A program made the translations under genes and the position numbers. DNA of 14,405 bases from Pyrinomonadaceae bacterium (GTDB lineage: Bacteria; Acidobacteriota; Blastocatellia; Pyrinomonadales; Pyrinomonadaceae). Within the stretch, counting starts at the first letter, position 1. Every line of letters begins with the position of its first letter. The notes under the pieces were generated by a model. It saw nothing but the letters and a program-made list of their open reading frames with translations, did no database searches and was not told where the DNA came from. Location of the stretch: contig JACCRA010000297.1 in the NCBI GenBank assembly GCA_013813825.1, positions 1 through 14,405 of the forward strand, written 5' to 3'. Shown here in pieces: positions 5,499 through 14,405 of the stretch.

Positions 5499-5757
5499 CG
5501 TCTTGGCGTAAAGTCCGCCGAGAAAGTTCTTCTTAACGAGCGCGCCGTCCCGATGCCGCCCGCAACGGGCGCGCCGGTGATCTCGATAGCTGGCTGTCCT
5601 TTTTAGTCGCACTAAGTCACAGCGTTCACGCTTACCGTTGGTGAAGGCTCGGCCCTCATCCCTTTGGAAGTTCGAGAGTGCGGTACTCGCCTGCGCCTCG
5701 TCGGTGAGATTTGGATTTGTCTGGGATGCGACGCACAGCAACCGCCGAGAGTACACG
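5499..5757. other. Non-coding leader upstream of the histidine kinase
   Basis: No convincing gene is seen on either strand. A GC-rich hairpin, CGCCCG-CAA-CGGGCG, is at 5557-5571 with no T-tract. A weak terminator-like element, GATAG-CTGG-CTGTC followed by five T, is at 5585-5604 and could end the EamA transcript. The kinase frame stays open upstream to 5638, but that stretch does not look like protein. No clear -35/-10 pair or sigma-54 element was found, so the kinase promoter is not identified. Confidence 0.4.
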
Positions 5758-6969
5758 GTGAGAGAACCACTGAAAAAGCTGATGCCCGAAGAGCAAGCAC
5801 CCGAAAGGCGCACGGCGGCAAGTCCCACAATTTCGAGCCGCGAAGACGCGCGCCCGCATGGCGGCCGGCTGCCATCAATTGAAACGGCGGAAGATGACCG
5901 ACAACTCGCCGCAGAGTTGTCGGCCGTCTTCGACATGCTCGACGCGGCGCTGCTGCTGCTCGACGCCGAAGGCCGGATCGTGCGACTCAACAGCGTTGCA
6001 AAAGAGTTAGCCGGCCCTGACGTTGAAGCGGAACCTCACGCCTTGACGCTCGGCGACCTCGGAGGCGGGCAGCCGTGGCAGTTGGCGGGCGAGATCACCG
6101 ATAGTCTCAGAAATACTCCCGCCGAACCGAACCGCAAAGCTCAGATCACGGATCAAGCCACCGGGCGCACTTGGGAACTGACGGCGCAACTCTGCGCGGC
6201 CGGCAACGGACAGACGCCGCAACAGCGCACGCTGCTGGCGATCCGCGAGTTGACCGAAACAGTCGCGCGGCACGACGCGTTGCGCCGCCGCGAGTTGATT
6301 GGCGCGATGGAGTCGTTGTGGCTCAACGTCGCGCACGAAGTGCGGAATCCCTTGTTTAGCTTATCGGCGATCCTCGACGCCTTCGAGGCCGAAGCGCCGG
6401 CGCAGGCGCAAGAGTTTGCGGAGTACCTGACGGCGCTCCGGCGACAAGTCGAGCGCCTCAGTAAGCTGATGCAGGAGATACTCGTCTATGGTAAGCCGAT
6501 CAGTTTGGAACTGTCGCCAATCATCGTCGAAGCCTTGATCGAGCAGACGAGCAGCGACTGCGCGGCGCTGGCAAAGACGGCCGGCGTCCGCGTCGTGTCC
6601 GTGGTCGCACCGGACTGCGGCGCGGCGTTCGCCGACCGTCTGCGGCTGACGCAAGTGCTGCACAATGTCATCGAAAATGCGATCCAGCATTCGCAGCCCG
6701 GCGGGATTGTCACAGTGCGGGCGAGCCGCGAACGCCGTCGGCGGCGCGCGTGGATCAGGCTGGAAGTCTCGGATTCCGGCAATGGATTCGCCGCCGCCGA
6801 TCTGCCGCGCGTCTTCGAGCCGTTCTTCACCCGGCGCAAAGGCGGCATCGGTCTCGGTCTGGCAATCGCGCAGCGCATCGTCGAACAGCACGGCGGGCAG
6901 ATCGACGCGCGCAATAAAGGGAACCAATCCGGCGGGGCGCTGATCACTTTCGAGATTCCAGCACATTAG
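5758..6969 (+). CDS. Soluble PAS-domain sensor histidine kinase (NtrB-like)
   Basis: 403 residues from GTG 5758, preceded by a GAGAG at about 6 bases; ATG 5782 is an alternative. No membrane segment, so cytoplasmic. Residues 1-48 are polar and disordered-looking. About 52-165 form a PAS-like sensor (VFDMLDAALLLLDAEGRIVRLN). About 180-250 are the dimerisation/phosphoacceptor domain with LNVAHEVRNPL, phospho-His193. The HATPase domain has the N-box LHNVIENA (N303, N307), the G1 box VSDSGNG (D339), the F-box FEPFF and the G2 box GIGLGL (363-368). All catalytic motifs are intact. The next gene, 90 bases downstream, is a sigma-54 activator, so it should phosphorylate that regulator as NtrB, ZraS and AtoS do theirs. 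The signal sensed is unknown. Confidence 0.92.
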   Translation: MREPLKKLMPEEQAPERRTAASPTISSREDARPHGGRLPSIETAEDDRQLAAELSAVFDMLDAALLLLDAEGRIVRLNSVAKELAGPDVEAEPHALTLGDLGGGQPWQLAGEITDSLRNTPAEPNRKAQITDQATGRTWELTAQLCAAGNGQTPQQRTLLAIRELTETVARHDALRRRELIGAMESLWLNVAHEVRNPLFSLSAILDAFEAEAPAQAQEFAEYLTALRRQVERLSKLMQEILVYGKPISLELSPIIVEALIEQTSSDCAALAKTAGVRVVSVVAPDCGAAFADRLRLTQVLHNVIENAIQHSQPGGIVTVRASRERRRRRAWIRLEVSDSGNGFAAADLPRVFEPFFTRRKGGIGLGLAIAQRIVEQHGGQIDARNKGNQSGGALITFEIPAH

Positions 6970-6972
6970 AAG

Positions 6973-7043
6973 GAAGTGATGAATGCGAAATGATGAATGA
7001 CAGACATTTTGCTTTTAATTCATCATTTCGCATTCATCACTTC
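6973..7043. repeat. Perfect 26-base inverted repeat R4, between kinase and regulator
   Basis: Arms 6973-6998 and 7018-7043 are exact reverse complements over 26 bases, with a 19-base loop. The arm is heptameric, GATGAAT GCGAAAT GATGAAT at 6978-6998. It starts 4 bases after the kinase stop codon. It would form a long RNA hairpin inside a kinase-regulator transcript. There is no T-tract that would make it a standard terminator. Confidence 0.92.
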
Positions 7044-7059
7044 TTTTCGGGGGCGGAGC

Positions 7060-8415
7060 GTGTCGAGAAACAGAATCTTACTGGTTGACGACGACGAAGA
7101 CATTTGTTTCGCACTGAGAAAATTTTTGACCGCGCGCGGCTATGAAGTGATCGCGGCCGGGACGTGTCGCGCGGCGGAAGAGGCGTTCGCCGCCGGCCAG
7201 CCAGATGTGGCCGTGATCGACTACGCCCTGCCGGACGGCAGCGCGCTCGAACTGCTGGCGCGGCTCAGAGAGATCGACTCGTCGGTTCCGCTCGTCGTCC
7301 TCACAGCGCACGGCTCCATTGATCTGGCGGTGCGCGCCATTAAGGAAGGCGCGGAACAATTTCTCACTAAGCCCATCGAATTGCCGGCGTTGCTGGTCGT
7401 CCTTCAGCGTCTGCTGGAAACCGAGCGCGGCCGTAAAAAGCTGCTCGCCCATGCCCTGCACGACGCGCGCGACGCGGTCGATCCGTTTCGGGGGACTAGT
7501 CGCGCGATCCGCGAGTTGGCCGAACACGCGCGCAGCGTCCTCACCTCGCACAGCCCACTCCTGATCGAAGGCGAGACGGGCACGGGCAAAAGCGTGCTCG
7601 CGCGCTGGATACACGCGCACGGCCCGCGCGCCGACGAGCCGTTCGTCGATCTCAACTGCGCCAGCTTCTCGCGCGAATTGTTAGAGTCGGAATTGTTCGG
7701 CCACGAGAAGGGAGCATTCACCGGAGCTATCGCCGCGAAGCCGGGGCTGCTGGAAGTGGCGCACCGCGGCACTGTCTTCCTCGACGAGATCGGCGACATG
7801 GATTTGCAAGTCCAGCCCAAACTGCTCAAGGTGTTGGAAGAGAAACGCTTTCGCAAGGTGGGCGGCGTGCGTGACCGGCAAGTTGACATCCGCCTGATCA
7901 CTGCGACGCATCAGGACTTAAATCGGCTCGCGCTGGTAAAGCAATTTCGCAGCGACTTCTATTTTCGCATCAGCGCGCTTCCGCTTCACGTCCCACCGCT
8001 ACGCCAGCGCGCGGAAGACATCCCGGCCCTGGCCGGGCATCTCCTGAAGTCGCTCGCGGCGGAGTTGAAGCACGAAGAGATCACCCTTGCGCCCGACGCC
8101 CTCGCTGCGCTGCACGCCTATTCTTGGCCGGGCAACATCCGCGAACTCCGCAACGTCCTCGAACGCGCCGTGTTGCTCGCCGGCTCGCCTGTCATTTCCC
8201 GCCGCGACCTGCGTTTTGGCGTCTCGCCCGGCCATCCGGCGACGACCACTGAAGACGATGCCGACGCCACTCTGGAAAGCAACGAACGCCGCCACATCGA
8301 GCGCATCCTCCATGAACAAGGCGGGCGCGTTGACCACGCTGCCGCCTGCCTCGGCCTTTCCCGCAGCGCGCTCTATAAAAAGATCAGCAAGCACTGCATC
8401 GATCTCCCCAAGTAA
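7060..8415 (+). CDS. NtrC-family sigma-54-dependent response regulator
   Basis: 451 residues from GTG 7060, just after a G-rich GGGGGCGGAG; the upstream open frame would be encoded by repeat R4. Domains in order: receiver (5-120) with acidic D10-D12, phosphoacceptor Asp54 (VIDYALPDG), T82 and K104 (TKP); AAA+ domain (about 143-375) with Walker A GETGTGKS (171-178), the sigma-54-contacting GAFTGA loop (218-223), Walker B VFLDEIGD (239-246) and the WPGNIREL sensor region; then a Fis-type helix-turn-helix (410-447, HAAACLGLSRSALYKK). All key residues are present, so it should be an ATP-driven activator of sigma-54 RNA polymerase, switched by the upstream kinase. Targets are not proven; the best candidate in the window is the sigma-54-type site before bcsA. 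Confidence 0.95.
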   Translation: MSRNRILLVDDDEDICFALRKFLTARGYEVIAAGTCRAAEEAFAAGQPDVAVIDYALPDGSALELLARLREIDSSVPLVVLTAHGSIDLAVRAIKEGAEQFLTKPIELPALLVVLQRLLETERGRKKLLAHALHDARDAVDPFRGTSRAIRELAEHARSVLTSHSPLLIEGETGTGKSVLARWIHAHGPRADEPFVDLNCASFSRELLESELFGHEKGAFTGAIAAKPGLLEVAHRGTVFLDEIGDMDLQVQPKLLKVLEEKRFRKVGGVRDRQVDIRLITATHQDLNRLALVKQFRSDFYFRISALPLHVPPLRQRAEDIPALAGHLLKSLAAELKHEEITLAPDALAALHAYSWPGNIRELRNVLERAVLLAGSPVISRRDLRFGVSPGHPATTTEDDADATLESNERRHIERILHEQGGRVDHAAACLGLSRSALYKKISKHCIDLPK

Positions 8416-8555: not shown

Positions 8556-8897
8556 TTAGAGATTCAGCAGAAGACGAAGACGTTGGGCGACCTGTGAAAG
8601 AGTCTGCGGAGTTACCGTCCCTAGAACTTGCGCTAAACGATTAACCGAGATTGCGCGAACAGCTTCACACATGATGAAACTATGCATCGTCAGTCCACCT
8701 TCCGGCGGAGAAACCTCGACGTGTGAGGGAACATTCTTTGCTTTTGAAGTAATCGGAATGACAATGACGATTTCGGCACGGCTTCGATTCAGCCCATCAG
8801 CCGATACAATCAAACAAGGGCGTAAGCCTGCCTGCTCACGCCCTACCGTTGGACTAAAATTAGCCGTCCATATCTCTCCACGAGAAGGATTAGACAC
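8556..8897 (-). CDS. mazF: MazF/PemK-family endoribonuclease toxin
   Basis: 113 residues from GTG 8897. Family motifs are RGEIW (6-10), GREQAGLRPCLIV, with the Arg expected to take part in catalysis, VIPITSK, with the Thr/Ser of the active site, and a closing ISVNRLAQVLGTV. The product should be a ribosome-independent or ribosome-associated mRNA interferase that cuts specific short RNA sequences and stops growth when its antitoxin is lost. Its start overlaps the antitoxin stop by 8 bases, so the two are translationally coupled. The pair and its flanks are visibly richer in A and T than the genes on either side, which fits horizontal acquisition. Confidence 0.93.
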   Translation of the reverse strand: MSNPSRGEIWTANFSPTVGREQAGLRPCLIVSADGLNRSRAEIVIVIPITSKAKNVPSHVEVSPPEGGLTMHSFIMCEAVRAISVNRLAQVLGTVTPQTLSQVAQRLRLLLNL

Positions 8898-9180
8898 TCG
8901 TGACTAATCTCCCGTCTTCTGTCCAAACTTCGTCCGTCTCTAACCCGTCGTTCAACGTGCCTGCCAAGAAATCGCGTTCAGCAATTTCTTCTTGCCAAGC
9001 AGTTTCGTCGCTTTTTAGCGCAGCAAATGATGCATCAAGCTGCTCGAAGAACTGCTTACGATGATATTCCTCTACAGCTTTAGCTAGTACTACTTGCATG
9101 GACTCTTTACTAGCTTCTGATATTTGGCGAAGCAACAAGTGCGACGAGCTACCAATTCTAATCATGCTTGCTTGTGCCAT
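8890..9180 (-). CDS. Ribbon-helix-helix-type antitoxin of the MazF pair
   Basis: 96 residues from ATG 9180, preceded by GAGGG at a good distance; the frame stays open another 41 codons upstream, but that is promoter DNA. Residues 5-45 (SMIRIGSSSHLLLRQI, then SKESMQVVLAKAVEEYHR) fit a short beta strand and two helices, the RHH fold of DNA-binding antitoxins. The acidic C-terminal half (about 50-90, ending LNDGLETDEVW) fits a toxin-neutralising tail. It should neutralise MazF and, with it, repress the shared promoter. This antitoxin is a different type from the AbrB-type relic at 679-852. Confidence 0.85.
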   Translation of the reverse strand: MAQASMIRIGSSSHLLLRQISEASKESMQVVLAKAVEEYHRKQFFEQLDASFAALKSDETAWQEEIAERDFLAGTLNDGLETDEVWTEDGRLVTSV

Positions 9181-9228
9181 GATGTTATCCCTCATTTCTA
9201 CAACGTAAGGGAGAAAGTGTGTGCGTTG

Positions 9229-9257
9229 TGTATAGCTTAAGATACTTAAACTGTCAA
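9229..9257 (-). promoter_or_regulatory. Sigma-70 promoter of the antitoxin-toxin operon
   Basis: On the minus strand a perfect -35 TTGACA (9252-9257) is followed, after exactly 17 bases, by -10 TATACA (9229-9234, 4 of 6). Transcription would start near 9222, about 40 bases before the antitoxin ATG. Confidence 0.75.
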
Positions 9258-9261
9258 CTAA

Positions 9262-9286
9262 GTTGTATACACAATTTGTATACAAC
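9262..9286. promoter_or_regulatory. Palindromic operator candidate for antitoxin autoregulation
   Basis: GTTGTATAC and GTATACAAC are perfect 9-base inverted arms separated by ACAATTT, directly upstream of the -35 box. A related half-site, GTTGTGTATA (9225-9234), overlaps the -10. This placement suits repression by an RHH antitoxin-toxin complex that bridges both sites. Binding itself is inference. Confidence 0.6.
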
Positions 9287-9585
9287 ACTAAAACATTACA
9301 CATTCCTCTAAAGCCACGTCAACGATAAAATTTGTCAGGGTTTAACGCCTGCGAGTTTGTAAAGCAATCCAACGCGCAATGGCGAAGGCAGGAAATGTTT
9401 GACCTGCTCGCCGTCTTTTCCGCTCAAAACTTGATTTACTCCTTCCTCCTGAAATTACCCGAACCGTCTCGAATTGGAGACTGCTAGTCTCGATTTCGAC
9501 ACGCAATTCATAATCGCCATTTTATCGAAAGCCCTAAAACTCTGAATTTACGGGATATTTACGAAAGACCGTGTTAAACTAAGTT
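9287..9585. other. Intergenic region between the toxin-antitoxin operon and bcsA
   Basis: About 300 bases of comparatively AT-rich DNA without a supportable gene on either strand. Its only marked structure is the GTCTC/GAGAC cluster at 9466-9491. No heptamer repeat of the R1-R5 kind was found here. Confidence 0.5.
9466..9491. promoter_or_regulatory. Candidate upstream activator (enhancer) site: three GTCTC/GAGAC half-sites
   Basis: GTCTC (9466-9470), GAGAC (9477-9481) and GTCTC (9487-9491) have centres 11 and 10 bases apart, about one helical turn. The last two extend to a 6-base palindrome, GAGACT-GCT-AGTCTC. They lie roughly 120-145 bases upstream of the start expected from the sigma-54 site, the usual distance for NtrC-type enhancers. 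Confidence 0.4.
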
Positions 9586-9600
9586 TGGCAGACGAATTGC
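9586..9600 (+). promoter_or_regulatory. Candidate sigma-54 (-24/-12) promoter before bcsA
   Basis: TGGCA-GACGAA-TTGC matches the invariant parts of TGGCAC-N5-TTGC with exact spacing; GG is at 9587-9588 and GC at 9599-9600. Transcription would start near 9612. The caution is that this is only about 2 bases before GTG 9614 and after GTG 9602, so the message would be essentially leaderless. Confidence 0.5.
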
Positions 9601-9613
9601 CGTGTTTATCAAT

Positions 9614-12600
9614 GTGGGGCAGCGAATCCTTATTGTTGACGATGATGAAATCATCCGCTTCGCAGTCGAGCGGTACTTTACTAAGCTCGGCTATGAAGTA
9701 GTGCCAGCCGAAACTTTTGAAGAGGCGCGGGCGATGCTGAGTGAGCGGCGGTTCGCCCTCGTGATCACGGATTTGCGCTTAGGCGGAACCGACAGCGCGG
9801 AAGGTTTTGAGATCGTCGAGTTGGTGCGCGTCACCGCGCCGGGCACGCGGACGATCATTTTCACCGCGCACGAGTCGCCGCAGATTAAAGCGGAGGCGCT
9901 CAAGCGCGGCGCTGACCGGCTGCTACATAAAACGATCCGACTGCCCGACTTGGCTCAGTCAGTCTCCGCTCTGTTAGCCGAAGAGATGACCGCCTCCCCG
10001 GTTGCCTTCTCGCCTTTGACATCCAGTGTGGAAAAGTTCCACGCCGTCGCACCTTTCGCGGCGCGAGTCGAAAGCCCGCCGCAGCACTCGCCGCCGTTGG
10101 ACCGGGTTCCCGCCTTTCATCCCGCCGCCGATCTCCATGCCGACGCGACGCCTTCAGACGCACCGACACCACACGCCATCCCGGACTTCACACCGCTTGA
10201 GCCTTCCACAGGAAGCAACAACGGGCGGGCGCATCTTCTGCTTGGCAGAGCCTCAGTTCGTCTCGCGGCGCGGATCAGAGAACACCGTTTGTTCGGTCGC
10301 GTGATCAGCGAGGTCGAACGGCGCGCGGAAGGGCGGCCGGTGGCGTGGTGGAGTTGGATCGCGCTGTTCGCGCTGTTCATCTACATGGCGCTCGTCTCGG
10401 TGGACGTTCGGGCGCAAGTCGTGATCAGCGTGGCGGCGCTCGGTCTGATGCTGTTGCTGCGAAAGTCGAAACAGGCAGTCGTCAGGCGCAACGTCTTCTT
10501 CCTGCTCGGCTCGTTCCTCAGCCTGCGGTATTTCTTCTGGCGCACTTTCGACACGCTCACCTACGTCGATTTTCTCAGCTTCGGTGCGGCGATTCTGCTC
10601 TATCTGGCGGAAGTTTACGGCATCACGATCTACGTCGTCAGCATGTTCGTCAACGTCGCGCCGTTGGAACGTGAGCCGGCCCCGCTGCCGAAGAATCAGG
10701 ACGAGTGGCCGACCGTGGACATCATGGTGCCCTCGTACAACGAAGACCCGGATATTCTCGAAGTGACACTGCTGGCCGCGACGCAGGTGCGCTATCCCGA
10801 ACGCAAGTTTAACGTCTATTTGCTGGACGACGGCGGCACCGTTCAGCGGCGCAACGACCGTGATCCGGCGAAGGCCGCAGCGGCGCGGCAGCGGTACGAA
10901 ACTTTACGCTCCTTGTCGGCGCACATCGGCGCGACCTACGTGACGCGCGAAAAAAATGTTCACGCCAAAGCCGGCAACATCAACTCCGGCCTCGCGCACA
11001 GCAACGGCGATCTCGTCTTGATTCTTGACGCCGATCACGTCCCCGCCGCCGACATTCTGGAAAAGACGGTCGGACTGTTTCTGCAAGACGAAAAGATGTT
11101 CCTCGTCCAGACGCCGCACTTTTTCATCAACCCCGATCCGATTGAACGCAACCTCGACACTTTCCAGACGATGCCGAGCGAGAATGAGATGTTCTATCGC
11201 GTCATCCAGAAGGGCTTGGACTTCTGGGGCGCATCGTTCTTCTGCGGCTCAGCGGCGCTGCTCCGGCGCAAGTATTTAACGGAGATCGGCGGCATCTGCG
11301 GCGAGAGCATTACCGAAGACGCCGAGACGGCACTCGAACTGCACAGCCGCGGCTATCACAGCGCCTACATTCAGCAACCGATGATCGCCGGCCTCCAACC
11401 CGAATCCTTCAACGGCTTCGTGGTACAGCGCACGCGCTGGGCGCAAGGCATGGTGCAAATCTTCATCCTGAAAAACCCGCTCTTTAAGAAAGGACTGACG
11501 CTGGCGCAACGGCTCTGCTATTTCAACAGCTCGTTCTTCTGGTTCTTCGCTTACTCGCGCATCGTCTTTCTTCTCGCGCCGGCCGCCTACCTGCTGTTGG
11601 GTTTGCAGATTTACCGCACCGACTTTCTACACTTTCTCGGCTATGCCGTGCCGCACCTGATCGGAGCTTTCCTCGTGCAAGACTACCTGTTCGGACGGGT
11701 GCGCTGGATCATAATGTCGGAATTGTACGAACTGATGCAGGCGGTCTTCGCCTTGCCCGGCATCATCAAGGTTTTCATCAACCCACGCGCCCCATCCTTC
11801 GCCGTGACGCCGAAGGGCGAGCAACTGAACGAAGATTTCATCTCGCCGCTTTCGTTCCGCTTCTACGTTTTGTTGCTGCTGAACATCGTCTGCATCATCG
11901 TCGCGGCTTGGCGCTACACGTCCATGCCGCAGGAGCAAGGCGCGGTAGTGATCACGGCCGGGTGGGCGGTCTTTAACGTCTTTTTGACGCTCGCCGCGCT
12001 CGGCGTTTTGCGCGAACGGAGCCAGCGCCGCTCCGTGCCGCGCGTCCCGACGCGCACGGGCGCGACGATCATCGGCGAGGGACTGCCGCCAGTGCCCGGC
12101 ATGTTGCACGACTTTTCGGTTTCGGGCGCGCGGATCGTCGTCGATCATAGTTACCAATCGCTGCTCGAAAATTTCGAGGGCGGCAGCCTGCGCGTCCACC
12201 TCCCAACTTCGGGCGTCGAAACGGACATCGAGTTTATCGTCCGCAACCGCTTCACCGCCGGCAACGGTTATTCAGTCGGCGTCCAGTTCCGGCCGCAGAC
12301 GGCGGATGTGCGCGCCGACATCATCGAGTTGATGTATGCGCGCAGCGAACGCTGGAACCGTTTTCAGACTGATCGCCGCCACGCCATCGGCATTTTCGGC
12401 GGCCTCGGTTTTTTCATGAAGCGCGGCATCGTCAACTCCGCTTCGCACCTTAAACTGCTCGCAGAGTCTGCCGGCAAAAACCTCTCCGTGCAGACTGCCC
12501 GCCTGATCGAACGGCAACTCAAGCCGGCTCTCGACAGCACCAAAGCGAAAATTTTGCAGCCCGCTAACGGGCATCACCGCCACCACCATCACCACCCCAA

Positions 12601-12652
12601 CCAGCCGAACCGGCTGCCCGAGTTGCCGGCGCAGGAGACAGTCACCAAATGA
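9614..12652 (+). CDS. bcsA: Cellulose synthase catalytic subunit with N-terminal receiver domain (REC-GT2-PilZ)
   Basis: Inner-membrane processive glycosyltransferase that makes beta-1,4-glucan from UDP-glucose and pushes it through its own channel. The start is GTG 9614 or GTG 9602; residue numbers here count from 9602 (1016 residues). Residues 8-126 are a receiver domain: D13-D15, phospho-Asp57 (VITDLRL), T88, K110, although Thr replaces the usual Pro after the Lys. A Pro/Ala-rich linker (127-245) follows, then membrane helices from 249. The GT2 core has LLDDGG (D409-D410), DADH (D476, D478), FFCGS (546-550), TED (571-573) and QRTRW (609-613). FAVTPK (733-738) is the gating loop. A PilZ domain follows, with RSQRR (806-810) and DFSVSG (837-842), both c-di-GMP-binding motifs. 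A natural His-rich run, HHRHHHHH, starts at 991. No clear ribosome binding site is seen. Confidence 0.95.
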   Translation: MGQRILIVDDDEIIRFAVERYFTKLGYEVVPAETFEEARAMLSERRFALVITDLRLGGTDSAEGFEIVELVRVTAPGTRTIIFTAHESPQIKAEALKRGADRLLHKTIRLPDLAQSVSALLAEEMTASPVAFSPLTSSVEKFHAVAPFAARVESPPQHSPPLDRVPAFHPAADLHADATPSDAPTPHAIPDFTPLEPSTGSNNGRAHLLLGRASVRLAARIREHRLFGRVISEVERRAEGRPVAWWSWIALFALFIYMALVSVDVRAQVVISVAALGLMLLLRKSKQAVVRRNVFFLLGSFLSLRYFFWRTFDTLTYVDFLSFGAAILLYLAEVYGITIYVVSMFVNVAPLEREPAPLPKNQDEWPTVDIMVPSYNEDPDILEVTLLAATQVRYPERKFNVYLLDDGGTVQRRNDRDPAKAAAARQRYETLRSLSAHIGATYVTREKNVHAKAGNINSGLAHSNGDLVLILDADHVPAADILEKTVGLFLQDEKMFLVQTPHFFINPDPIERNLDTFQTMPSENEMFYRVIQKGLDFWGASFFCGSAALLRRKYLTEIGGICGESITEDAETALELHSRGYHSAYIQQPMIAGLQPESFNGFVVQRTRWAQGMVQIFILKNPLFKKGLTLAQRLCYFNSSFFWFFAYSRIVFLLAPAAYLLLGLQIYRTDFLHFLGYAVPHLIGAFLVQDYLFGRVRWIIMSELYELMQAVFALPGIIKVFINPRAPSFAVTPKGEQLNEDFISPLSFRFYVLLLLNIVCIIVAAWRYTSMPQEQGAVVITAGWAVFNVFLTLAALGVLRERSQRRSVPRVPTRTGATIIGEGLPPVPGMLHDFSVSGARIVVDHSYQSLLENFEGGSLRVHLPTSGVETDIEFIVRNRFTAGNGYSVGVQFRPQTADVRADIIELMYARSERWNRFQTDRRHAIGIFGGLGFFMKRGIVNSASHLKLLAESAGKNLSVQTARLIERQLKPALDSTKAKILQPANGHHRHHHHHPNQPNRLPELPAQETVTK

Positions 12653-14405
12653 GACGCAGGATCAGTAAAGTTTTCAACTTCGGTTTGAGCCTGACAGTTT
12701 TGTTAATCAGCCTCGGGCCGCTCCCCGCCGCCGAAGCGCAAAACGCGAACCGCGCGACAGCCGTGAAGGGCAACACGAACGGCAACTCAAATCGTAACCG
12801 CGCCACCAGCAGCACGCCGGCCACTACTGCAAACTCCGCCACCAACGCGAACACCGGCGACGCTCAGTCGCCCGTTACAGGACTGTCTGACACGCCCGCC
12901 GCCGCACCGACTGGACCAGCCGCCGGCGACGGCCCGGTTTACGAAATGACGCTGGCGCGGTTGTTAGGACGCGGCGAGCCGCTGTATTTGCGGAGCGCGG
13001 CGGGCGAAGGCCAAGTGCTGATTCCAGTCTCCGCCCGCATGAAAATCAACAGTTTGAATTTGCACTTGGAATTCACCAACTCGATCTCGCTGCTCCCGGA
13101 GCGTTCGCAGTTGGTCGTCTCCGTTGACGACGTAGTGGTGAAGCAGTTTTTGCTGCGTCCCACGCCGGCGACAGTAATTGAAGACATCGCGTTGCCCGTC
13201 AACCTCCTGACGCCGGGCTATCGCCGTTTGAAGTTCCGCGTCGCGCAGCACTACACGCTGGAATGCGAGAACCCGGCCGCGCCGGAATTGTGGACGCAGA
13301 TCGACACGGCGCGCTCGCTCCTGACGCTGCGCGGCGAGATGCAACCGCTACCGCAACCCACGCTCGCGCGTCTCGGCGACTTGGTGGACGAAAAGCTGTG
13401 GGGCGAATACGCCGTCAACATCGTCACCGCGAACCAAAGTTTGCGCGACGAGCATCTGCGCTGGGGATCACTGGTGGCGCAGGGCATGGCGCTGCGCCTG
13501 AAGTTTAAGCCGCTGCACCTGCGCCACGTCGCGGCGACGCGCGGCGGAAGCAGTGGCGGCCTCGATCAGGCGGCGTTGAAAGGCCGCGATAATGTTCTCA
13601 TCGGGACCAGTACGGAACTGTCCGGGCTGCTGCCGCCTGAGATCATGTCGCGCGTCGGGCGCGGCGGCTTCCTCGGCGTCTTCCCGCTCGCGGGCGATCC
13701 GGCGCACTTCCTCGCCGTCATCTCCGGCGGCAACGATGAGGACGTGACGCGCGCCGCTACCGCCTTCCCATTCATGAATTTCCCTTTCCCCGACGCGCCG
13801 TTCACCGAGATCGCCGCCAACGAGATTCCCGAATTTCCGGCCTACGCCGCCGAGCGTTCGATCAACGTCAACGCCACGTACCCGTTCACCTACTTCGGCG
13901 CGCAGACGACGACCTTGCGCGGCATGAGTTCCGGCGAAGTGTCGTTGGAGATGGACGTGCCCGCTGATCTCTTCGCGCGCGAAACGAGCGTCGTGGAGAT
14001 GAGCCTGCACTTCTCCTACGGCGCGGCGCTCAGGAACGACTCGGTATTGAACATTAGTCTTAATGATCGCTTCGAGAACGCCGTCCACTTAGGCGACGAG
14101 GGCGGCGCGGTCTATCGCGATTACAAAGTCTCGATCCCTTTGCGCTCGTTCCGCGCCGGGCGCAACGAATTGACGTTGGCCCCCAACATGACGCCGCTCG
14201 TCTCCGGCAAGTGCGAGATCATTCAAGACCATAACCTTCAGTTCACGCTCTTTGACGACTCGACGTTGACGGTGCCGAACGCCGCGCACGATGCGCCCGA
14301 GCCATGTCAACTCACCCTCGTCCGAATTGACGCTCAGGGGCGTAGTGAACGGCGCTTTGGAATTGAGGGGGGCTTCAGCGAGCAGTTTCCGATCAATCGC
14401 GCCGA
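12649..14405 (+). CDS. bcsB: Cellulose synthase periplasmic subunit BcsB (3' partial)
   Basis: 585 codons are visible; the gene continues past the right edge. The ATG at 12649 overlaps the bcsA stop as ATGA, with AGGAG about 11 bases before it, so translation is coupled. Residues 1-30 are a signal peptide (basic start, hydrophobic LTVLLISL, AEA before Q31). Residues 31-95 are an Asn/Thr/Ser/Ala-rich flexible linker. The beta-rich body then begins (VYEMTLARLLGRGEPLYLRS). ECENPAAPELWTQI, with Cys206, matches the characteristic BcsB motif, and FDDSTLTVP near 14250-14277 matches another conserved BcsB segment. BcsB carries glucan-binding and flavodoxin-like domains, guides the polymer across the periplasm and is needed for BcsA activity through its C-terminal membrane anchor, which lies outside the window. 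Confidence 0.94.
   Translation, partial: MRRRISKVFNFGLSLTVLLISLGPLPAAEAQNANRATAVKGNTNGNSNRNRATSSTPATTANSATNANTGDAQSPVTGLSDTPAAAPTGPAAGDGPVYEMTLARLLGRGEPLYLRSAAGEGQVLIPVSARMKINSLNLHLEFTNSISLLPERSQLVVSVDDVVVKQFLLRPTPATVIEDIALPVNLLTPGYRRLKFRVAQHYTLECENPAAPELWTQIDTARSLLTLRGEMQPLPQPTLARLGDLVDEKLWGEYAVNIVTANQSLRDEHLRWGSLVAQGMALRLKFKPLHLRHVAATRGGSSGGLDQAALKGRDNVLIGTSTELSGLLPPEIMSRVGRGGFLGVFPLAGDPAHFLAVISGGNDEDVTRAATAFPFMNFPFPDAPFTEIAANEIPEFPAYAAERSINVNATYPFTYFGAQTTTLRGMSSGEVSLEMDVPADLFARETSVVEMSLHFSYGAALRNDSVLNISLNDRFENAVHLGDEGGAVYRDYKVSIPLRSFRAGRNELTLAPNMTPLVSGKCEIIQDHNLQFTLFDDSTLTVPNAAHDAPEPCQLTLVRIDAQGRSERRFGIEGGFSEQFPINRA

Follow-up and report, generated by a model that had tools for sequence, protein, structure and literature searches.

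The locus and its fusion gene

The window, by which we mean the whole 14,405-nucleotide stretch analysed here, is the entire contig (C111) of a Pyrinomonadaceae assembly of 3.96 Mb (78% complete, 819 contigs). Its features, and the comparable receiver genes of related loci, are collected in Table 1.

Table 1. Features of the window and of three related loci (positions in nucleotides)
Feature	Position	Strand	Basis and remarks
Histidine kinase (HisKA + HATPase_c)	5638..6969	+	Pfam, NCBIfam; no own receiver in Pfam
NtrC-type sigma-54 activator (receiver + AAA+ + Fis-type HTH)	6997..8415	+	Pfam; homology to relatives from 7069
MazF/PemK-like toxin gene	8556-8897	-	Family match; between NtrC and fusion
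Unnamed 137-aa ORF, partner of the MazF-like gene	8890-9303	-	Without family match
Upstream box 1, GTCTCGAATTGGAGAC	9466..9481	+	Near-palindrome, 16 bp; 120 nt 5' of the -24/-12 element
Upstream box 2, GTCTCGATTTCGACAC	9487..9502	+	16 bp; 21 nt after box 1, 99 nt 5' of the -24/-12 element
Sigma-54-type -24/-12 element, TGGCAGACGAATTGC	9586..9600	+	Sole exact TGGCA-N6-TTGC in the window
REC-linker-BcsA-PilZ fusion gene	9602..12652	+	ORF call, Pfam, NCBIfam; 1016 aa, GTG start, alternative start GTG 9614
Receiver (REC) domain, residues 9-121	9626..9964	+	Pfam, conserved residues, model, structure match; D57 = phospho-acceptor
Ala/Pro-rich linker, residues 126-244	9977..10333	+	Composition, full-length model
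BcsA catalytic and membrane core, residues 247-953	10340..12460	+	TIGR03030; encloses PilZ
PilZ domain, residues 808-912	12023-12337	+	Pfam, motifs
bcsB	12649..14405	+	PF03170, 210 bits; overlaps bcsA stop codon, ended by contig end
Stand-alone receiver directly 5' of EAL-domain gene	L195 8235-9568; L197 7146-8346; L262 6706-7979	Locus orientation	Pfam (L195, L197); clustering (L262)

In the fusion protein Pfam finds a Response_reg domain (72.5 bits; cut-off 30.2), GT2 families and PilZ (39.4 bits; cut-off 22.5), and the NCBIfam model TIGR03030 (CelA) scores 891 bits against a curated cut-off of 699. The 119-residue linker includes 19 Ala and 15 Pro, and the receiver lies N-terminal to the first membrane helix, which starts at about residue 247. 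An earlier note on this DNA had described receiver residues D13, D14, D15, D57, T88 and K110, a Pro-rich linker of about 120 residues, a full BcsA core with its gating loop and an intact PilZ domain; all four descriptions were borne out, the receiver residues falling at just these positions in the alignment. The domain scores and the open frame rule out an ORF that arose by chance or a misreading of two genes as a single one. The REC-BcsA-PilZ fusion frame with intact domains is confirmed as real, and is known from one contig of one MAG. The C-terminal tail of the protein is His-rich (HHRHHHHH, window about 12560-12650).

The synthase part carries the BcsA motifs DDG 409, DADH 476, FFCG 546, TED 571, QRTRW 609 and FAVTPK 733, catalytic and gating-loop motifs included, and both c-di-GMP motifs of PilZ are present, R810-R814 (RxxxR) and D837FSVSG842 (DxSxxG). 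Among solved chains, BcsA structures (5ej1, 4p00, 4hg6) come closest over residues 249-937. From the motifs and the model score, the fusion is predicted to be a true UDP-forming, c-di-GMP-responsive BcsA. The genome has 15 GGDEF matches, and therefore c-di-GMP can be made in the host; no BcsB match was found in it besides the adjoining bcsB.

A putative sigma-54-type promoter and upstream boxes

The exact pattern TGGCA-N6-TTGC is found once in the window against 0.17 expected, and at least once in 33 of 200 shuffled sequences. Box 1 fits the pattern GTCY-N7/8-RGAC, to which box 2 is not an exact fit. Taken alone, the promoter element and boxes of the window are only suggestive. Among relatives of the locus, TGGC-N7-TTGC lies within 500 bp 3' of the NtrC gene in 14 of 21, the rate over 16 loci being 0.025 per 500 nt with the sites themselves included; these were the 16 loci in which a site had already been seen, none being shown in L255, L259, L265, L268 and L269. 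Upstream of the promoter, at a distance of 50-160 bp, GTCY-N7/8-RGAC is present in 9 of the 16 loci scanned, where shuffles and random stretches of those loci average 0.2 and never exceed 2; the significance is somewhat overstated because the pattern was formed after viewing the same loci. The genome contains rpoN. A wider regulon of such boxes was considered and rejected: allowing up to 2 mismatches, the genome holds 18 sites versus 7 for the reversed control, none of them convincing, with a one-mismatch site on contig C628 judged by its ORFs only.

The promoter also bears on the start codon. Since the sigma-54 site, if real, puts the transcription start near 9612, the in-frame GTG at 9614 (Val5) would be a likelier start than 9602, provided that the site is genuine. 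This is a weak point of the promoter, because the -12 element ends at 9600 and this GTG would have a leader of about 2 nt. For three Acidobacteria, an average of 13% of genes have been predicted to be leaderless (PMC3160421), so such a leader, and a near-leaderless transcript of the fusion from GTG 9614, are possible. Control at the promoter was absent from the earlier note, as were Leu107 and the published archaeal fusions, both considered below.

A conserved kinase-NtrC-receiver locus

Orthologues of the window NtrC (52-64% identity) were found in a further 23 genomes of the class (Blastocatellia), after which identity drops to 43-45%; the underlying search matched 28 of 162 class genomes at E <= 1e-110, own genome included. 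We examined the loci of 21 of the 23, the two omitted having partial matches. A stand-alone receiver belonging to one sequence cluster follows NtrC on the same strand within 2.5 kb in 13 of these 21 relatives, and in a 14th (G114, L255) it lies 8.3 kb downstream. Four loci (L265, L267, L268, L269) reach the contig end less than 2 kb from NtrC, and in L263, L264 and L266 the clustered receiver was not seen in the stretch examined after NtrC. The window has kinase, NtrC and receiver in the same order as its relatives, but with the receiver fused to the synthase, and its kinase is 41% and 37% identical to the kinase ends that occupy the corresponding place in G161 and G009. The kinases of L251-L254, L256-L259 and L268 have an N-terminal receiver-like domain, which Pfam does not find in the window kinase. 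The ORF lists of the relatives show no counterpart of the MazF-like gene pair at the corresponding position.

Within the class, the window receiver is matched best by stand-alone proteins (41-46% identity). In a tree of 123 columns it falls in a 19-row clade with the locus receivers (97/91), apart from the NtrC receivers, a placement to be read with the length of its row (1.08) and the tool's warning that long rows are placed unsurely; the clade includes L092, L098, L100 and L270, which are not shown beside an NtrC gene. The window NtrC groups with its own orthologues (100/99). A copy of the receiver from the neighbouring NtrC gene, its best match in the own genome (33%), was rejected on the same tree, which puts the window receiver with the stand-alone receivers under the same caution on long rows. 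The reading that fits the fusion best is that a receiver from an older kinase/NtrC/sigma-54 locus was linked to a bcsAB pair that had been acquired. BcsA is rare in the class (2 of 162 genomes at E <= 1e-60, own genome counted), which suggests the acquisition.

The surroundings of the stand-alone receivers give some idea of what the older locus may have controlled. In G161 and G009 (by Pfam) and in G156 (by sequence clustering) the receiver directly precedes an EAL gene, a possible receiver/phosphodiesterase pair, and this adjacency hints at long-standing c-di-GMP or surface-polymer outputs. In L252, L253, L254, L257, L258 and L259, PEP-CTERM proteins (clusters F5 and F10) lie between NtrC and the receiver behind a sigma-54 promoter, which would fit secreted surface proteins as older targets of the NtrC-type regulator; two of these proteins were scanned, and both exceed the TIGR02595 cut-off.

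One proposed kinase for two receivers

The positions of receiver helix 1 that contact the kinase, which we take to be 17, 18, 21, 24 and 25 of the fusion, agree with the residues of RR468 that the title of entry 4ja2 names as rewired. The residues found there are IIARY for the window receiver and DIAKF for the window NtrC. When locus receivers are compared with NtrC receivers, the score per column is 1.56 at these positions and 1.32 in the remainder of the domain; for locus receivers against other REC domains, a small and partly poor comparison set, the values are -0.39 and 1.01. For the window receiver, an unclean row (L261_other) ties with NtrC at a contact score of 10. For a shared kinase, this likeness is only supporting evidence. 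The neighbouring kinase is the likely donor for NtrC, and we propose it as donor for the fused receiver as well. It had been named before as a candidate partner, a suggestion that is now better supported by the conserved gene order and the similar contact positions. We arrive at a reading whose chances we consider evenly balanced, namely that the kinase would phosphorylate both NtrC, turning the operon on, and the fused receiver, tuning the enzyme, alongside c-di-GMP.

A receiver with altered switch residues

Alignment with related receivers shows that the fused receiver keeps the residues of phosphorylation: the acidic pair D13/D14, D57, T88 and K110. Modelled alone, it has a standard receiver fold (pLDDT 91) that matches solved receivers (3crn, TM 0.90), and the closest solved chains to residues of about 8-123 are NtrC-type receivers. 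The full-length model is mostly confident in the BcsA core and leaves residues 49-218 at pLDDT <50, probably because its alignment held one other receiver; REC had no confident place in it and was therefore modelled separately. The modelling called for at the outset has given the fold of both parts; a docked receiver, which we also considered, was rejected in view of the low pLDDT of residues 49-218.

Two residues near K110 depart from the related receivers, a set of 24 (28 alignment rows minus four window copies). Leu107 (K110 minus 3) stands where all 24 have Phe or Tyr, and Thr111 (K110 plus 1) where 22 have Pro and 2 have Ala. The Thr in place of Pro had been pointed out earlier and does set this receiver apart, but it is not the sole departure. 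The aromatic residue at K-3 and the Pro at K+1, usual features of the receiver switch that are common and not strictly defining, are both absent from the fusion. The former position has been tied to Y-T coupling and signal output, and K+1/K+2 to conformation (PMC12632262). Because Leu107 and Thr111 replace kept residues and the receiver branch is long, the switch may be altered or lost; because the phosphorylation residues remain, it may be shifted rather than dead.

These departures also argue for a different view, in which the receiver works independently of phosphate as a module for assembly or docking: the fusion would place the synthase or make it dimerise, and phosphorylation would carry little weight. 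Both substitutions lie at positions linked to output or conformation, the receiver branch is long, and a precedent exists in E. coli, whose Bcs complex includes BcsE with its degenerate REC* (PMC7439463, PMC11470070). However, the window receiver retains all its phosphorylation residues, unlike REC* of BcsE, and its kinase-contact positions are still NtrC-like; we regard this view as unlikely, though it is the strongest of the competitors. More doubtful by a good measure is that the fused receiver acts mainly as a phosphate sink or competitor that tunes NtrC phosphorylation with little effect on the synthase. The five stand-alone receivers of the locus scanned by Pfam have no output domain, and the fused receiver and NtrC share similar kinase-contact residues, as a sink would have it; yet for a sink the fusion to a membrane synthase would be needless, and the receivers placed directly before EAL genes suggest c-di-GMP outputs. 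Phosphorylation of NtrC and the synthase by a common kinase is the reading that we carry further.

Rarity of the fusion

Protein-database searches with the whole protein, residues 1-330 and residues 5-128 returned no second REC-BcsA-PilZ protein. With the whole protein, a Pfam receiver occurs in 1 of the 120 proteins listed of 1768 at E <= 1e-3, the window protein itself; among the 26 matches listed for residues 1-330, and the 101 listed of 2040 candidates for residues 5-128, only the window protein has glycosyltransferase domains. The search depends on shared 5-residue words, and thus distant fusions, for instance archaeal ones, would be missed. We examined 173 BcsA-core frames, comprising 6 window copies and 167 others with some duplicates; of the locus-less matches in the phylum of G512 (a Nitrosomonadales MAG) they include the frames of at least 903 aa, and of 507 relatives in one listing they cover 80. 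None of the 167 matches the receiver profile, nor, by profile comparison, do the long N-terminal extensions of the 16 other BcsA frames listed with one. BcsA itself was found in 40 of 396 genomes of the phylum sample, own genome counted, and in 71 of 398 genomes of the phylum of G512. Three BcsA matches have one to three internal stop codons (G822:C7:45549-47765, G780:C33:129-2300, G706:C3:41384-43618) and are decayed genes, sequencing errors or cases of another genetic code.

An assembly artefact joining two genes is very improbable: the fusion is seen once, in a fragmented MAG, and the nearest BcsA relatives (58-60% identity) are without REC, but the frame is open across 1016 codons, linker included, GC is 58-65% on either side of the joint, though GC3 is higher in BcsA (0.80) than in REC and linker (0.68-0.69), and locus order, promoter and boxes match those of relatives up to the receiver.

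Proposed mechanism and comparison with known systems

The fusion frame with its intact domains, and the conservation of locus, promoter and boxes in relatives, are the observations on which the following scheme is built. A stand-alone receiver of the older kinase/NtrC/sigma-54 locus would have been joined to the N-terminus of BcsA. The neighbouring kinase would phosphorylate two receivers, that of NtrC and that of the synthase (at D57). Phosphorylated NtrC would bind the GTCY...RGAC boxes and drive the REC-bcsAB operon from the sigma-54 promoter, the D57-bearing receiver on its flexible cytosolic tether might change activity, assembly or position of the enzyme and so glucan synthesis, and c-di-GMP on PilZ would release the gating loop, as with other BcsA proteins. 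The two-input cellulose switch put forward in the earlier note holds as to architecture, both possible inputs being present; that phosphorylation affects the synthase is still an inference. More tentatively, and with the balance somewhat against it, the system may form a coherent feed-forward switch, in which the kinase turns on transcription of the synthase through NtrC and sigma-54 and also licenses the enzyme through its receiver, with c-di-GMP needed at PilZ. Cellulose synthesis would then require a sustained kinase signal and c-di-GMP at the same time. The idea of phospho-control is testable because the kinase/NtrC/receiver locus is conserved, and the ancestral state, with a separate receiver beside kinase and NtrC, can be compared with the derived state, in which the receiver is fused to the enzyme.

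Control of BcsA by c-di-GMP is a textbook case of allostery. The literature searched yielded no case of a bacterial cellulose synthase controlled directly by phosphorylation in cis, nor a paper treating receiver-glycosyltransferase fusions as a topic.

In its regulatory part the window resembles the PrsK/PrsR systems of PEP-CTERM/exopolysaccharide loci, which likewise combine a kinase, an NtrC-type regulator and a sigma-54 promoter with an upstream site; the PEP-CTERM proteins between NtrC and receiver in the relatives recall the same loci (PMC1569441, PMC9850573). Between NtrC and the fusion, the window shows no PEP-CTERM gene. The PrsR model TIGR02915 gives 344 bits for the window regulator and 355-357 for the relatives, below its cut-off of 502.6. 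By this analogy the window regulator may work like PrsK/PrsR without being PrsK/PrsR.

On the enzyme side, core, gating loop and PilZ of BcsA from R. sphaeroides (4p00, 4p02, 5ej1; for 4p02 see PMC7063779) and E. coli (7lby, 9fmv) align with residues 249-937 of the fusion, and both enzymes, unlike it, are without a receiver. E. coli BcsA has an N-terminal domain of its own, recruiting BcsG, where the fusion has the receiver (PMC11470070). As in the fusion, a receiver fold is found inside the E. coli cellulose synthase complex, in BcsE; there, however, it belongs to a separate protein, is degenerate (REC*), and phosphotransfer is held unlikely, whereas the receiver of the fusion is in cis with its residues kept (PMC7439463).

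The closest published architecture is that of the REC-BcsA and REC-REC-BcsA proteins of Methanobacteriaceae, 13 of which are listed, including MTH_548, with N-terminal receivers on a BcsA-like glycosyltransferase (PF13641) as in the window (PMC5847659). A receiver on a BcsA-like enzyme is therefore already in print. The REC-BcsA-PilZ fusion came up in no other genome searched, and the literature searched yielded no bacterial REC-BcsA accompanied by PilZ and bcsB. Compared by description, the published proteins are archaeal, with PilZ nowhere mentioned in the text of PMC5847659, and that of the window is bacterial, with TIGR03030, PilZ and bcsB. Should the feed-forward reading be correct, this bacterial cellulose synthase would, within the searches made, be the first to act as a response regulator itself and to take c-di-GMP as its second input.
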